Shown piece by piece: positions 4,101-33,873 of a stretch of 64,000 nt of DNA. Under the pieces are notes generated by a model. That model was not told the origin of the DNA, did not search any database, and saw only the letters and a program-made list of their open reading frames with translations. The translations under genes and the position numbers were made by a program. Origin of the DNA: Acidobacteriota bacterium (GTDB lineage Bacteria > Acidobacteriota > Polarisedimenticolia > J045); assembly GCA_025456425.1 (NCBI GenBank), contig JALOKP010000001.1, positions 1 to 64,000 of the forward strand. The letters are read 5' to 3'. Each line of letters starts with the position of its first letter. The stretch's first letter is position 1.

Positions 4101-7100
4101 GGCCGGCGTCGGCGCGGTCCCGCCGCGGATCGAGGTGGCACCGCCCGAGCTGGACGCGACCCTGAACCAGTTCGCGCAGGAGACGCAGCCGTTGACGGTC
4201 TCCAACGTCGGCGGGCTCGTCCTGGACTTCACGGCCGAGGTCGTGCCACGCGGGCCCGGCCTGCAGCGCTCGCCGTTCGCCGGGCTCTCGACCGGCGACG
4301 GGCGGTCGGACAACGCGGCGCCGTCCAACTCCGGCAACGGGCCCGCAGCGCCGTCGGCGTTCCACGGCGCCGACGCGTCGTTCGAGCCGCTCCCGGCCAG
4401 CCCGGCCGCGCTGACCTGTGTGGTCGGCGACCCGGAGGGGAGGGCCGTCTACGCGCAGGCAAACCAAGGTTACGACTTCTTCCGTTTCCGTCCCGAAACG
4501 GGAGCGTGGGAGACGCTGAGCGGCTGCCCGCTCCACTCCGGCAACAATGGTGGCGCGGCGCTGCTCGGTGGAGCGGTCTACACCAGCTACACGGCCTCAG
4601 GGACCGAGCTGGGCGTCTACGACGTCACGACCGACAGCTGGACGAGCCGACCGCACCCGCTCGGAGGGGGGACCGCCAACATCGCGAGCGACGGGACCGC
4701 GTTCCTTTACTTCGCCCTGGGGCGGCGGCTGGTCCGCTACGATCCCGCCAGCGGCGAACAGATCGACCTCGCCGCACCGCCCTTTGCGTTCGAGCCCTGG
4801 GGCGGCCTTGCCTACAACGGCGGACGGCTCTACGGCCACGAAGGTAACGGGCTGACGGGGTTCGCGGTCTACGAGGTCGCGCACGATGTCTGGCGCGAAC
4901 TCCCGCCGATCCCGGCGGGAGCCGTGGCGGGGGCGGCGATCGACCCGCTGGCGCAGGAGTACGCGGCCGCCGGGCCCTACGGCGGCAGCAACCTCTACCG
5001 CTTCTCGCTGGCCGACGAGTCCTGGCGCGTCTCGACGCTGCCCTTCTTCGTGGGCGACGGTGGGCTGGGCTGGCTGCCCGGGCGCCCCTCGGGGCTCTAC
5101 GTCGTGCAGGGCGAGGACGGCGTCGCATTCACGCGCCTGGTCGGCGCGCCCTCCTGGCTGCGGGTGACGCCCGACTCGGGAAGCGTGCCGCCCGGCAGCG
5201 CGGCAGTGCTCGACGTGACCTTCGACTCCGCCCCACTGCTCGGCGGCGACTACGCCGCGACGATCGAGATCCGGAGCAGCGACCCGGACACGCCGCTGGT
5301 CTCCGTGCCGGCGGACCTGACGGTCACCGGGGTGCCGGACATCGCGCTGGCCGGAGTCGAGCAGCGGCTCGAGTCGGCAATCGACTACGGCGGGAGCGGC
5401 GCCCTGACGCCGCACTCGTTCTGGATCGTCGTCCCTCCGACGACTGGCGGCACGATCGAGCTGGTCGCCGACGGCGACTACGGCGACGAGACCGAGCAGG
5501 CGACGGCGAGTGCCGAGGGCCTGACTCTGGGGACGGTCGGCTCGACCGGCTTGGACTGCAGCGCGGCGAGCGGGCGGTTCCCGATCTCAGCCGTGGACCT
5601 GGCCGCCCTGGCCGCGGACGGCGTGGTGCGCGTCGACGTCCAGAACAGCGCCTGGGTCGAAGTATTCTGCGCGGTGAACCGGCACACGGTTCGCCTGCGC
5701 TATCGCGGCGCCGCTGACCGTCTCGAGTTCGGGGAGCTGTTCCCCGGCCAGTCCCGGATCCTGGAGCTGGAAGTGCGGAACGGCGGGTCCAGCCCACTCG
5801 ACATCTCGTCGATCGTCAGCGACCTGCCGGAGTTCGTCCCCTCCGCGACCTCGCTCGACCTGGCGCCTCACGCCACCGTGTTCCTCGCCGTCCAATTCAC
5901 GCCGGGGGCCGTCGGCACGTACGACGGCACGCTGACCTTCACCAGCAACGACCCCGACGAGCCGGCCGTGACCGTGGCCCTGTCCGGCGCCGGTGTCGAG
6001 CCACCGCAACTCACGGTCACGCCGTCCGGGTTGAGCGCGACCCTCGAGCAGGGGAACCAGGAGACGCAGCTGCTGACGCTGTCGAACTCGGGTGGCGGCT
6101 TGCTCGAGTACACGGCCGAGGTCGTACCGCGCGGCGCTGACCTGGTGCGCACGACGTACTCCGCGCTCTCCGCCGGGGGCCCTTCCAACAACCCGCCGCC
6201 GGCGCCCTCCGGTGCCCCGCCCGCGGAACCGCCCCCCTTCCGGGGCGCCGACGCGGCGTTCGAGCTGCTGCCCCCCAGCCCGGCCGCGCTGACCTGCGTC
6301 GTCGCGGACCCCTCCGGTCGGGCGATCTACGCGCAGCAGGAGGCTGGCACCCGGTTCTTCCGCTACCGCCCCGAGAACAGGGCCTGGGAGCCGCTGTCCC
6401 CGGCGCCGATCTATCCGGGCAACAACGGCGGCGCGGCACTGCTCGGGGGCACGATCTTCACGACCTACAACGACTGGGGATCGCTGCTCGGCGTGTACGA
6501 CATCGCAACCGACAGCTGGTCGACGCGCCCGCATCCGCTCGGAGGCGGTACCTCCAACGTGGCGAGCGATGGGACGCGCTACCTTTACTTCGCTCTGGGA
6601 ACGCGGCTGGTGCGCTACGACCCCGCCAGCCAGGAGCAGACCGAGCTCGCCGTCCCTCCCTTCGCATTCGAGAGCTGGGGCGGCCTCGCCTACTCCAACG
6701 GCCTGCTCTACGGTCACGCCGGGAACGGACGGGTCGAGTTCGCGACTTACGACATCGCCGGCGACGCCTGGCGCCTGCTGCCCCAGCTCCCCGGGGGGGC
6801 GGTGCTCGGTGCGGCGATCGACCCGCTGGCGCAGGAATACGCGGCGGTCGGGCCGTACTACGGGACCAACCTGTACCGCTTCTCGCTGATCGACGAGACC
6901 TGGAGCGTCTCGAGCCTGCCGTTCCTCGTGGATGACAGCGGCCTGGCCTGGCTGCCGGGCCGGCCCTCCGGGCTCTACATCGTCCAGGGCGAACGCGGTG
7001 CCTCGTTTGCGCGCCTGGTTGGCGCGCCGGCCTGGCTGCAGGTCTCGCCCGACGCCGGGAGCGTGCCGCCGGGCGGCTCTGCCGACCTGCAGGTCACGTT

Positions 7101-29039: not shown

Positions 29040-29924
29040 ATGACCGAGCGATTCACGAGATCGGAGATCTGGCGCGTGGCGGTCCTCGGGTGCGTCCTGG
29101 CCGCGGGGATGCTTGCATCGGGCCCCGTCTTCGGCGCTTCCGCGCCGGCCGAGACGCGGGCCGTTCCGGCCGGCGAGAACGTCGAGATGAAAGGCGTGAT
29201 CGTCAGCCGTGACGGCGAGACGCTCGTGCTGCGGGATTCCACCCGTACCGACACCGTCCTTCTCCTGACCGACACCACGACCATCAAGACGAAGGCCTCG
29301 GGCGACAAGCCCGGCGAGAAGTTCGACGTCACCGCGCTCGTCCCGGGCCTGATCGTCACGGCCAAGGGCACCGGCGATGCCGAGGGCCGGCTGGTGGTCC
29401 GGGGCATCCGGTTCAAGAAGTCGGACTACAAGGCGGCGGTCACGGCCTACACGATGACGGACCCGGTTGCGGACAAGGCCGACCAGGCGCTGCGGGACAT
29501 CGCGTCGACCGACCAGCGGATCGCGGCCCTCGACGACTACGACCTGGTGAAGACCGTGACCGTGTACTTCGCCGTCAACAAGGCCGACCTGTCGCCGGAG
29601 GCCAAGGCGTCGCTCGACGAGGCCGCCGCGAGCGCGCCCGGCGCCAGGAACTACACGGTCGAGGTCCAGGGATTCACCGACTCGACGGGCGACTTCGACA
29701 AGAACCTCGAGCTGAGCCAGCGCCGCGCCAACGCCGTCGTCCAGTACCTGGCGGTGAAGCACGACATTCCGCTGCGGCGGATCGTCACGCCGATGGGCTA
29801 CGGCTCCACGAAGGCCGTCGCGGACGAAAGCACCGCCGAGGGGCGCGCCCAGAATCGCCGGGTCGAGGTCCGGGTGCTGGTCAACAAAGGGCTCGGTCAG
29901 GGGTCCGCCGGCGGGGCGAAGTAG
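29040..29924 (+). CDS. OmpA-family peptidoglycan-binding protein with DUF5666-like N-domain
   Basis: 294 residues from ATG 29040, with AGGAG just upstream. Residues 1-32 form a signal peptide. Residues ~45-130 form a small beta domain (ENVEMKGVIVSRDGETLVLRD, then TALVPGLIVTAKGTG), similar to DUF5666-type exported domains. Residues ~170-285 form an OmpA-like domain: VKTVTVYFAVNKADLSPEAK, the helix NLELSQRRANAVVQYL and the motif GYGSTKAVADESTAEGRAQN with RRVEVRVL. The OmpA fold binds diaminopimelate of peptidoglycan, so the protein links cell wall and outer membrane or matrix. The tail is Gly-rich. No neighbour on the same strand; the next gene downstream is convergent. Confidence 0.9.
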   Translation: MTERFTRSEIWRVAVLGCVLAAGMLASGPVFGASAPAETRAVPAGENVEMKGVIVSRDGETLVLRDSTRTDTVLLLTDTTTIKTKASGDKPGEKFDVTALVPGLIVTAKGTGDAEGRLVVRGIRFKKSDYKAAVTAYTMTDPVADKADQALRDIASTDQRIAALDDYDLVKTVTVYFAVNKADLSPEAKASLDEAAASAPGARNYTVEVQGFTDSTGDFDKNLELSQRRANAVVQYLAVKHDIPLRRIVTPMGYGSTKAVADESTAEGRAQNRRVEVRVLVNKGLGQGSAGGAK

Positions 29925-29982: not shown

Positions 29983-30011
29983 AAAAAAAAGGCGCGGCCA
30001 GTGGCCGCGCC
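29983..30011 (-). terminator. Intrinsic terminator of the 67-residue minus-strand gene
   Basis: Read on the minus strand, a perfect 10-bp stem (plus coordinates 29991-30000 and 30002-30011, single-base apex so effectively a 3-5 base loop) is followed by eight T (29983-29990 are all A on plus). It lies 25 bases after the stop at 30037 and is the only classical hairpin-plus-T-tract terminator I found. A second small CATCG-TTCG-CGATG hairpin (30015-30028) precedes it. Confidence 0.85.
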
Positions 30012-30036
30012 TCGCATCGTTCGCGATGTGGACCGG

Positions 30037-30240
30037 TTACCGACGCGCGCCCCTCTGCAGCGCCGCCCAGAGCGAATCCGACACGGCGATCTTCTGGTCG
30101 GGCGACAGGTTGCCGATGGCCTTCATGTTCGCCGGCAGGGTGGAGTCCGCCGGCAGCATCGCCAGGAGCTGGCCGATGGTGGTGAAGACGGTCGGGGCAA
30201 CGCGGTTCTCGAGTTCGGTCACCTGCAGCTTGCGGCTCAT
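30037..30240 (-). CDS. 67-residue protein with LENRVAP N-terminus
   Basis: A short minus-strand gene with an excellent ribosome site (GGAGGAGAG, eight bases before ATG) and an intrinsic terminator, so it is very likely expressed. The sequence begins MSRKLQVTELENRVAPTV, then an Ala/Leu-rich helix-like segment (IGQLLAMLPADSTLP) and NLSPDQKIAVSDSLWAALQRG. There is no signal peptide, transmembrane helix or Cys. The RKLQ.. ..LENRVAPTV start resembles the L-E-x-R-V-x-P motif seen at the N-termini of many secreted Planctomycetes proteins, but here the rest is only 50 residues. It could be a structural or regulatory peptide, or a leaderless modified peptide; without cysteines a lanthipeptide is unlikely. 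Function unknown. Confidence 0.8.
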   Translation of the reverse strand: MSRKLQVTELENRVAPTVFTTIGQLLAMLPADSTLPANMKAIGNLSPDQKIAVSDSLWAALQRGARR

Positions 30241-30643
30241 CTAGCTCTCCTCCGGCGGGGTCTCCGCCTGTCCCGGATCGGGACTCTCCTCTTTCCTGGG
30301 CATCGCCGTCCGCCACGCCCGACTGCGCGGGAACGACTTCCCAATGAGCAAGACGCGGGCCAACGCGCCGTTTCCTTGGCGTGCTGCAGAGGCCCTTTTC
30401 TGGTGGAGGTTTCCGCCTGCGGCGGCGCCGGCGTCGAACGGGCGGTCGCTGCCGCGAAGACGAACCGCGCAAGGTCGTCGACGAATCCGGCAGGGAGTGT
30501 TCACTCCCGAGACAGGCGCCCCTCCGCCCCGCGGCGAAAAGCGTGAGCCATCGGGCGTGGCCGCGGCGAGGCGTGAAACCGGGTGCCGGGGGTGTTCGGC
30601 CGGGTTCGGACGAGGGGGCGGCGCCTGCCGGGCGCCGCCCCCC
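30241..30643. other. 403-base gap with a strong hairpin at its left edge of the S8 gene
   Basis: Holds the upstream region of the 67-residue gene and the downstream region of the S8 peptidase gene. A perfect 12-bp stem, GGGGGCGGCGCC (30614-30625) with GGCGCCGCCCCC (30631-30642), sits directly after the S8 stop and is likely its transcript end. Remaining open frames are short and Arg/Pro-rich; none has a ribosome site worth noting. Confidence 0.5.
30614..30642 (-). terminator. Hairpin after the 1022-residue S8 peptidase gene
   Basis: Perfect 12-bp GC stem with a 5-base loop (TGCCG) starting two bases after the minus-strand stop. No T-tract, so a Rho-independent role is uncertain, but position and perfect pairing favour it. 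Confidence 0.5.
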
Positions 30644-33600
30644 TCAGGGGCACGCCGCCCGGCCGTGGTCGTCCGCGCTCATCCCGCAGAGCGTGCCGAC
30701 GGTCCAACCGCGGGGCCCGCTCGACGAGAAGCCCGGGTGACCCGCCGTCTCTTCGGCCGTCCAGAGCAGGTTGTACCAGACGTTCTCCTGGCCCGTGCTG
30801 TCGACCACGGTGGAGCCGCCGTTGCCGCCGTCGGCCTGCGCGCAGCCGGCGTAGCCGTCCCAGGCACCGAGCGCGTTGTAGAGCACGACCACCTTCTGCG
30901 CGCTGCAACTCGCCGCGTCGTAGGTCACGCTGAGCAGGTTCCCCGCGCTGCGCGTGAACCGGACGCTGTCCGCGACCGGCGGAGGCGGGGCTTGACCCGT
31001 CTCGCAGGTCGATCCGACGGCCGCGTCGCGAACGACGACGGTATCGACGTACCACCCGGCCGAGGCCCCGCTGCTGTCTTCGCCCTCGTGCCAGCGCAGG
31101 CGCACGGTCTGCCCCGCGAGCGCTCCCAGGTCGAGCACCACCGGCTGCGCCGAGCTGTTCGACACGCACCACGCGCGCTTGCCGGCGAGCGGGTTGCTGC
31201 AGCAGGTGCTCACCGTGCCGTTGAAGCCGTTGGCGGTGAACCACGCGTCGGGGACGACCGTCCAGGTTGCAAAGGTCGGGCCGACCGCGTACTCGAGCGT
31301 TCCGCCGTCCTTGCACGACGCCACCGTCCCCTCGAAGCGGAAGCCGTGGAAAAACGAGAGCCGGCTTCCGGCCTGCACCCCGAACGCCGGGCTCGTGAGC
31401 ACCTTGTCCCCGCGGCTGCCGGCGTCCCGCGCGTACCACGAGTGGGTCGGCGACTCGGCGTAGGTGTCGGACCAGGCCCAGTTCACCGCCCCGCTCAGCG
31501 CAGCGGCGCTCCAGCCGGGCAGGTCGAAACCACCCGCCCCCTCGAAGGTCTCGGTCAGGGTCTGGGTCGAGATCGGTCCGGACGGCGCGCCCGCCCGCTC
31601 CACGGCGTTCGGATCCTCGGAGCCGTTCGACAGGTCGACGGCCCGCACGACGTAGTAGTAGGTCGCGCCGCCGGCCAGGCCCGCGGCGTCGAGGTAGCTC
31701 GTCCCGTCGACGCCCGAGGCGATCACGTTGCCCGGCACGAGCGCCACGGGACTGGTCGTGGAGCGGTAGACCCGGTAGCGCACCGGACCCGGGCAGGCGG
31801 CGGTCGCAGCGGGCCACGCGAGCGACAGGGCGCAGGTCGACTGACCCGGGTTCGTCACCGACTCCAGCCCGGCGAAGGACGGGGCCAGCGTGCACGGGCC
31901 CGTCGCCGTGGCCTCGGCGCAGGCCGACGGCGCGGACTCGCAGCCGCCCGTCGAGTCGACTGCCGCGACCTTGTAGGAATACGTGATGCCGCCGCTGACG
32001 CCGGTGTCGGTCCAGGGCGACGCGGGCTGGCCGGAGCGGACGAGTTCGAACGCGCCGCCCGGGCAGGCGCCGGTCGAGCGGTAAACGCTGTAGGTCTCGC
32101 CAGCCGGGACGCCAGCGTCCCAGCTCACGGTAATGCTGTTGTCAGCGGGCACGGTGGCCCCGTCGATCGCGGGGGTCCCCGGAACGGTGCACAGGCACCC
32201 CGCGTTCACCGCCGAGAGGATGTTCAGTCGGCCGTTACCCCAGGTGTTGTTCGGACCGGTGGTGTAGTCCCCGCCGCAACTCTCCACCGTACCCGGCAGG
32301 TCGAGCGCGGCCGCGCTCAGCGCGATCTGGGTGTCGTCCTGCGCGTTCAGGAAGCAGGAATGAGCCGACCAGAGCAGCGCGACCGCGCCCGCTACGTGCG
32401 GGCCGGCCATGCTCGTCCCGTCCATCGTGGTGTAGGCCGAGTCGCTCGAGTTGTACGCCGAGCGCACACCCGATCCCGGGGCCACGATCTCGGGCTTCAT
32501 CGCTCCGGTACCGGTAGCGTAGCCGCGGCTGCTGAAACCCGAGATCGAATCCGAGCTGGTGGTGGAGCCGACGGTATAGGCGGAGAGGTAGAGCGCGGGC
32601 GGGTCGGTGACCGTGTTGCAGCTCGAGCCGGAGTTGCCGGCCGAGGCGACGGTCATGATCCCCGCGGCCTTCTGGTTGTCGACGGCGGCCTGCAGCGTGT
32701 CCCACGAGCAGCCTTCCGAGGTCGGGCAGCCCCAGGAGTTGTTGGTCACGTCGGGGGCCTTCGTCGGGTCCGGGTTCGTACCGTCGATTCTCGTCGGCGC
32801 CAGGAAGAACTCGAAGCACTCGAGATAGGTCGCGGGGGTGCCGACGCCGGCGTTCATGTTGCGGCAGCCGATCCACTTCGCGCCTGGCGCCATTCCGACC
32901 TGGTTCGAGCCGCCGTCGTCACCGACGACCGTGCCCATCGTGTGCGTGCCGTGGCCGTGGTCGTCGCAGGGGACCGGCGAATCGGCGCCGCAGCTGCTGC
33001 CGGTCTCGTGGATCGCGTCGTGCCAGTTGTAGTTGTGATCGGCGGCCGAGCCGTTCCAGCCGCGGTACTTGCTCTTCAGAGTGTTGTGGGTCCAGCGGAT
33101 CCCGGTGTCCTGGCCGGCGACGACGATCCCCTCGCCGCGGAAGCCGAGGTTCCAGACCGCGGGGGCCTGCACCTTGCTGATGTTCCACTCGACGGCGTCG
33201 GGCTCGCCACCGGCGGCCGGTGATCCCGGCGCGGCAGCGGGCGCGGGCCCCGCCTGCTCGTCGATCGCGCCCGGCCGGGGCAGGAGGTTCCGGATCGCGG
33301 GGTTCCCCTCGACGCGGTCCACTTCCGGCCGGCGGGCCGCCTCCACGGCGAGCGCGCGGTCGCCACCCTGGACCAGGATCGCGTTGACGATCCAGTACGG
33401 CCGGTACCGCACCCCGCGCGTGTCGAGCCAGGTGCGCACCGGGCCCTGCGCCGCGTCCGCGGCCTGGGTCAGGGCCGAGAAGACGAAGCGGCCCTTGTCC
33501 TTCTTGTCGGCCAGGGCGCGGGCCGCCGACAGGTCGGCCTGGTGCTTGAGCACGATGAAGAAGTCGGCCCGCTGGCCGTTCTCGGTCTGCTGCACGACCC

Positions 33601-33712
33601 ACCAATGAAGGTTCGGCGGGAGATCCGAGGCGGCGTCGCCGGCGGAGGACACGGGAAGGAAGGCGGCGCAGAGCAGCAGCGACAGCAGGACGGGCCGGGC
33701 GATCCGGAGCAT
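30644..33712 (-). CDS. Secreted S8 (subtilisin-like) peptidase with FN3 and anchor-J-like domains
   Basis: 1022 residues; start is ATG 33712 with a GAGGG ribosome site and a signal peptide (ends ~SSAGDA). An upstream in-frame extension to 33823 has no start signal. The propeptide (~35-140) is followed by the catalytic domain with D202 (VAGQDTG), H254 (DDHGHGTHTMG), N360 (SAGNSG) and S434 (DGTSMAGPHVAG), all intact, with the wide insert typical of larger subtilases. Then two FN3 domains (VSWDAG..., RVYRST...) and a jelly-roll like choice-of-anchor-J/MAM segment (NWAWSDTY, HSWYARDAGSRGDK) follow. The last ~110 residues form an FN3-like module with four Cys that ends GRAACP, matching the Cys-Pro end of four other secreted proteins in the window. 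Substrate unknown; probably extracellular protein degradation. Confidence 0.92.
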   Translation of the reverse strand: MLRIARPVLLSLLLCAAFLPVSSAGDAASDLPPNLHWWVVQQTENGQRADFFIVLKHQADLSAARALADKKDKGRFVFSALTQAADAAQGPVRTWLDTRGVRYRPYWIVNAILVQGGDRALAVEAARRPEVDRVEGNPAIRNLLPRPGAIDEQAGPAPAAAPGSPAAGGEPDAVEWNISKVQAPAVWNLGFRGEGIVVAGQDTGIRWTHNTLKSKYRGWNGSAADHNYNWHDAIHETGSSCGADSPVPCDDHGHGTHTMGTVVGDDGGSNQVGMAPGAKWIGCRNMNAGVGTPATYLECFEFFLAPTRIDGTNPDPTKAPDVTNNSWGCPTSEGCSWDTLQAAVDNQKAAGIMTVASAGNSGSSCNTVTDPPALYLSAYTVGSTTSSDSISGFSSRGYATGTGAMKPEIVAPGSGVRSAYNSSDSAYTTMDGTSMAGPHVAGAVALLWSAHSCFLNAQDDTQIALSAAALDLPGTVESCGGDYTTGPNNTWGNGRLNILSAVNAGCLCTVPGTPAIDGATVPADNSITVSWDAGVPAGETYSVYRSTGACPGGAFELVRSGQPASPWTDTGVSGGITYSYKVAAVDSTGGCESAPSACAEATATGPCTLAPSFAGLESVTNPGQSTCALSLAWPAATAACPGPVRYRVYRSTTSPVALVPGNVIASGVDGTSYLDAAGLAGGATYYYVVRAVDLSNGSEDPNAVERAGAPSGPISTQTLTETFEGAGGFDLPGWSAAALSGAVNWAWSDTYAESPTHSWYARDAGSRGDKVLTSPAFGVQAGSRLSFFHGFRFEGTVASCKDGGTLEYAVGPTFATWTVVPDAWFTANGFNGTVSTCCSNPLAGKRAWCVSNSSAQPVVLDLGALAGQTVRLRWHEGEDSSGASAGWYVDTVVVRDAAVGSTCETGQAPPPPVADSVRFTRSAGNLLSVTYDAASCSAQKVVVLYNALGAWDGYAGCAQADGGNGGSTVVDSTGQENVWYNLLWTAEETAGHPGFSSSGPRGWTVGTLCGMSADDHGRAACP

Positions 33713-33873
33713 GGGGGACCCTCGCGCGAGTTTCCGGAAAGGTACGCTGGAACGAACGGGAAAGTAAACGGCAGGGCCGGGTTTCACGATCCGGCCGGGC
33801 CGCAGGGCGAGGCGGTTCGGCATGGAGTCGGGGCTGGACCGCGGCTATCCTGCGCAGCAGGAGGGAACAGGCG

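Follow-up and report, generated by a model that had tools for sequence, protein, structure and literature searches.

In daptide systems, leader removal is RRE-dependent and involves an RRE fused to a site-2 protease (MpaP/DapP), and the leader motif ELExMEAP, numbered with its P as -1, ends at the cut (PMC10036551). The same paper reports daptides only from Actinomycetota, Bacillota, and one case in Pseudomonadota (PMC10036551). The M50 protease EpeP is thought to cleave and also export its peptide (PMC10885120), and this supposed combination provides a precedent for uniting both steps. The RREs of lasso-peptide systems (TbiB1 and others) hold the leader peptide in the structures 5v1u and 6jx3.

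Here, a 64,000-nucleotide stretch of an Acidobacteriota genome (the window) was analyzed, in which a small gene encodes a precursor-like protein carrying ELENRVAP near its N-terminus (ELExRIAP in its relatives). Its putative partner is a protein of 830-890 aa that combines a PqqD-like (RRE) N-terminus, an M50 site-2 protease, and an HlyD adaptor (RRE-M50-HlyD). Three features are shared with daptides: the precursor is short and has an ELExxxAP leader, an M50 site-2 protease carries an RRE at its N-terminus, and some genomes encode several precursors at one locus. The leader has the same frame and AP end as the daptide motif but differs in the middle, with R-I/V in place of M-E. The partner places its RRE as daptide proteases do, although it scored 195 bits against the daptide protease model NF041824 (cut-off, 300), and it is fused to an HlyD part that the daptide protease lacks. 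The invariant C-terminal Thr of daptides is absent (RR in the window protein), the host phylum differs, and neither DapB, DapC, DapD, and DapM nor a DUF-RRE protein, alcohol dehydrogenase, aminotransferase, or methyltransferase was found among the scanned neighbors of the partner gene in this genome or at the loci of relatives. A daptide identity was therefore rejected, on the missing Thr and the missing enzymes among scanned neighbors.

The likeness to EpeP/YydH (NF058609, YydH/LiaK) lies in a membrane M50 protease and a small peptide, whereas the RRE and HlyD parts are extra in our partner proteins, which matched NF058609 weakly (25-36 bits against a cut-off of 225); no epimerase-like family occurred among the scanned neighbors at the relatives' loci or at the partner locus of this genome. 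With lasso-peptide RREs the partner shares the fold, but its RRE forms part of an M50-HlyD fusion, and no lasso cyclase or B2 peptidase was seen.

The small gene and its family

The features of the small gene, whose product is MSRKLQVTELENRVAPTVFTTIGQLLAMLPADSTLPANMKAIGNLSPDQKIAVSDSLWAALQRGARR, are listed below.

Features of the small gene in the window
Feature	Position	Strand	Basis
CDS, 67-aa precursor-like small protein	30037..30240	-	ORF with ATG start; homologues in 11 of 12 family genomes
Shine-Dalgarno site GGAGGAG	30247..30253	-	Sequence; GGAGGAGA or near variant ahead of ATG in nearly all homologues
Intrinsic terminator, 11-bp stem and T8	29983..30013	-	Hairpin at similar position in about 13 of 15 homologues
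Predicted leader MSRKLQVTELENRVAP, codons 1-16	30193..30240	-	Motif L-x-V-x-x-L-E-x-R-[VI]-A-P; predicted cut after P16
Predicted mature product, 51 aa, TVFTTIGQLLAMLP...QRGARR	30040..30192	-	Fast evolving

The GGAGG of the ribosome site ends 8 nt before the ATG, and the terminator consists of an 11-pair stem (9 G-C), a 3-nt loop, and the T8 tract. Scanning both strands of the 64 kb for perfect stems of at least 8 pairs with at least 6 T in 8, and separately for T-runs of at least 7, returned this terminator alone in each case. The hairpin has no T tract on the opposite strand and was therefore assigned to the small gene. These results bear out the earlier note, which had described a perfect ribosome site, a textbook T8 terminator found only once in 64 kb, a length of 67 residues, and an N-terminus resembling L-E-x-R-V-x-P without a following large domain; this N-terminus proved to be conserved, as LExR[VI]AP. 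The search for paralogues in related genomes that the note had proposed was also productive: homologues were detected with a profile of relatives in 11 of the 12 genomes of the same acidobacterial family, 4 of these 11 peptide-bearing genomes carry paralogues, and the exact 67-aa protein occurs once in its own genome. A chance ORF is ruled out by these homologues and by the ribosome site and 3′ hairpin that recur in most of 15 homologues, so the gene is a genuine small-protein gene, as claimed. Since GGAGGAG-like sites and a 3′ hairpin run through most members, strong expression signals, as predicted from sequence, are a trait of the whole small-protein family, and we infer that the gene is probably strongly expressed. 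The flanking genes encode an OmpA-domain protein (29040-29924, + strand) and a subtilase (30644-33823, - strand); neither is conserved around the orthologue in the related genome G009, and both were therefore rejected as partners.

Family members range from 67 to 104 aa and share the N-terminus RKLxVxELExR[IV]AP, with a mean pairwise identity of 77% over the first 16 residues against 37% over the remainder. Between the window gene and its G009 orthologue, the leader showed a dN of 0.056 and a dS of 0.33, against a dN of 0.42 and a dS of 0.49 for the post-leader remainder. The two members of 67 aa appear to miss part of the middle present in longer members; the FTLSDNIVISD motif of the latter may have its counterpart in the C-terminal LSxxxxIxVSD-like stretch of the two short ones, a pairing that the automatic alignment does not make. 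C-termini vary, with RR in the window protein and GH, FG, GK, NR, and others in relatives. Two helices were weakly predicted (residues 16-27 and 55-66), and the AlphaFold2 model of the peptide had low confidence (pLDDT, 56), making the structure unreliable. A conserved leader followed by a variable core, which defines a RiPP precursor in the broad sense, characterizes the family, although its product, being long and partly conserved, is unlike typical RiPP cores. Neither Pfam nor NCBIfam holds a model for these peptides, and no text with the LExR[IV]AP motif was found in the open-access literature (subscription papers lay outside the search); judged from these sources, the family appears undescribed.

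The putative RRE-M50-HlyD partner and its distribution

A gene for RRE-M50-HlyD lies directly upstream on the same strand at 10 of the 15 pattern-matched sites of the family. Across the phylum, the protein was detected (E ≤ 1e-70) in 20 of the 21 genomes with the motif against 34 of 396 overall, and in the 21st motif genome the partner copy is truncated at a contig end. Over the 12 family genomes, partner presence parallels peptide presence: G008 (99% complete), the sole family genome without the peptide, also lacks RRE-M50-HlyD. Conversely, 14 genomes, mostly of family f36, have a homologue of the partner with no detected LExRIAP peptide, so the link with the peptide covers parts of the RRE-M50-HlyD protein family, not all of it. 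In the partner tree, peptide-linked proteins fall into two separate deep groups, with support of 100 for the clade of the window's family and 88 for the non-family clade. Plasmids yielded only partial, distant matches, nothing on an RRE/PqqD-M50-HlyD combination was found in the open-access literature, and no outer-membrane channel, ABC transporter, or energy source lies beside the genes.

In the genome of the window, the partner gene (G000:C96:37681-40167) is on a different contig from the small gene. Its neighborhood is the same as in G009, including a small downstream gene that in another relative (G005) follows the peptide, and in the tree the two partner proteins group as sisters. In both genomes the peptide is missing from the partner locus and located at a different place in each, for which relocation of the peptide gene is the simplest reading. 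The partner protein matched PqqD (26.9 bits; cut-off, 23.4) and HlyD (63.5 bits) in Pfam, whereas its M50 score (26.0 bits) was slightly below the cut-off of 27.2; the protease motifs HExxH (HEMAH) and LDG are intact. For all four full-length partners scanned, NF041824 was the top-scoring NCBIfam family, below its cut-off. The AlphaFold2 model of the N-terminus exceeded a pLDDT of 90 over residues of about 10-90, and a Foldseek search with it ranked 5v1u and 6jx3, both complexes of a lasso-peptide RRE with its leader, first, followed by the heterocyclase TruD and, at lower ranks, by RiPP maturases such as those of sactipeptides; computation thus shows the modeled partner N-terminus as an RRE fold. 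The expectation in the earlier note that another protein serves the peptide was broadly right, but the note had suggested a modifying enzyme nearby, whereas the protein in question is encoded on another contig and predicted to be a fusion for leader binding, proteolysis, and export.

Several further observations concern these genes. The genome of the window holds three more PqqD-domain proteins (C191:6391, C242:4126, and C137:12730). On its contig C129 (locus L065), a second RRE-M50-HlyD gene (from L065:6661 onwards, - strand) adjoins an HlyD-type partner and is faced by a repeat-rich peptide gene (about 6030-6584, + strand; MSKPKSVTIKLTEKQRTQIKSATGVDHSEIRVE...KSALASKSALAS...). Leaders similar to that of the L065 peptide stand beside genes of the same type at L177 and L179, possibly forming a second leader family. 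In f36, the homologues without an LExRIAP peptide are those of L204-L208 and L212-L215, and at L204-L206 a protein with a formylglycine-generating-enzyme-like domain, judged by eye, is nearby. The RRE-M50-HlyD gene of G032 (L053:5358-7677, - strand) is interrupted by an in-frame TGA. At L023, L024, L046, and L047, the peptide has a large TPR protein in its vicinity (the only one scanned matched DUF3857), and a small conserved protein is encoded divergently from the partner gene at these four loci and at L144.

The predicted leader tag across Acidobacteriota

Searching 396 genomes of the phylum with the codon pattern L-x-[VI]-x-x-L-E-x-R-[VI]-A-P returned 48 sites. At 34 of them the motif is N-terminal in a short ORF, and an RRE-M50-HlyD gene adjoins 27 of the 34; these counts are not independent trials because the genomes are related. 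The other 14 sites fall in long or unrelated frames and look like background, comparable in number to the roughly 17 scattered single matches of a reversed-pattern control. Beyond the family of the window, the short ORFs are unrelated apart from the tag (31-76 aa, some in tandem); overall, the sequences that follow the tag, from 8 to about 88 residues, are entirely different. For instance, two genomes carry MAKKSTKKVVKLNVERLEKRIAP-TRAAIAMG in tandem, one with three copies and the other with four, L136 carries three different tagged peptides, and L053 and L142 encode LEQRIAP-SQPPGLLGYEGQPGNQG... peptides. Two further partner-linked peptides, at L174 and L211, have a variant motif that falls outside the codon pattern.

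A proposed secretion route and its alternatives

The same frame, position, and partner as in daptides led us to propose an RRE-bound leader, a cut after VAP, and HlyD-aided export. In this likely scenario, the window gene would give rise to a ribosomal precursor whose first 16 residues act as a leader, recognized by the RRE (PqqD-like) domain at the N-terminus of the partner encoded on C96. The site-2 protease part would then cleave after the A-P of LENRVAP, and the HlyD part would connect the product to an outer-membrane route, by which a 51-residue peptide would be released from the cell. As the scanned neighbors include no modifying enzyme, our first guess is that the product is unmodified. 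Product regions that differ so widely and change so fast fit secretion better than a housekeeping function; outside the cell, the peptide could serve as a signal, an antagonist, or a surface peptide. Counting against this scenario, the window gene is not beside its partner but between the OmpA and subtilase genes, and it appears to be an unlinked member of the leader-peptide family. The genomes with a partner homologue and no detected peptide, the atypical core, the low-confidence peptide model, and the lack of a channel, transporter, or energy source beside the genes weigh against it as well.

That RREs mostly work with modifying enzymes (PMC7470986), together with the further PqqD-domain proteins of this genome and a B12 radical-SAM protein encoded some 3 kb upstream of the RRE-M50-HlyD gene, would suit a true RiPP, in which a modifying enzyme encoded elsewhere would likewise be recruited by the leader, and leader removal by the M50 part would be just the final step. 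We regard this as unlikely, given that the loci compared share no modifying enzyme next to either the peptides or the partner gene, that this radical-SAM protein is closest to a hopanoid methylase, and that the product regions of different groups have no visible common pattern of modifiable residues. Less probable still is a small intracellular or membrane-associated protein that is not exported and uses its N-terminal motif as an interaction site to regulate RRE-M50-HlyD, for example, as an activator or adaptor. The C-terminal motif kept in the product region of the family and the ability of the peptide gene to sit apart from its partner are compatible with such a regulator; however, a tag shared by sequences that are wholly dissimilar, range from 8 to about 88 residues, and in some genomes stand in tandem fits substrates better than a fixed adaptor.

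The earlier note had also likened the N-terminus to the motif of Planctomycetes exported proteins, and this affiliation did not survive comparison with the corresponding model. A short, basic, leucine-rich LExR-like N-terminal stretch is indeed shared with PF07595 (Planc_extracel) proteins, and PF07595 was the only Pfam match of one relative (E, 0.33). However, the best relative reached 11.2 bits, well below the curated cut-off of 25.5; the window protein was missed and its whole genome returned zero matches, and the weak matches elsewhere equaled the level in control genomes. Considering also that the host is an acidobacterium, of another phylum, and that no large exported domain is present, we find it highly improbable that the peptide is a member of this group that lost its large domain.

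Returning to leader-guided cleavage and export, a broader and more tentative proposal, to which we would give somewhat less than even weight, is that LExR[IV]AP peptides and RRE-M50-HlyD form a self-contained Gram-negative secretion route, in which one protein would recognize the leader, cleave it, and couple the unmodified product to export, with products from 8 (TRAAIAMG) to about 88 residues. How the widespread but poorly cultured Acidobacteriota signal or compete is little understood. The window gene may expose a compact route for peptide secretion in these bacteria, and if this is true, LExR[IV]AP would be a searchable signature for secreted bacterial peptides.
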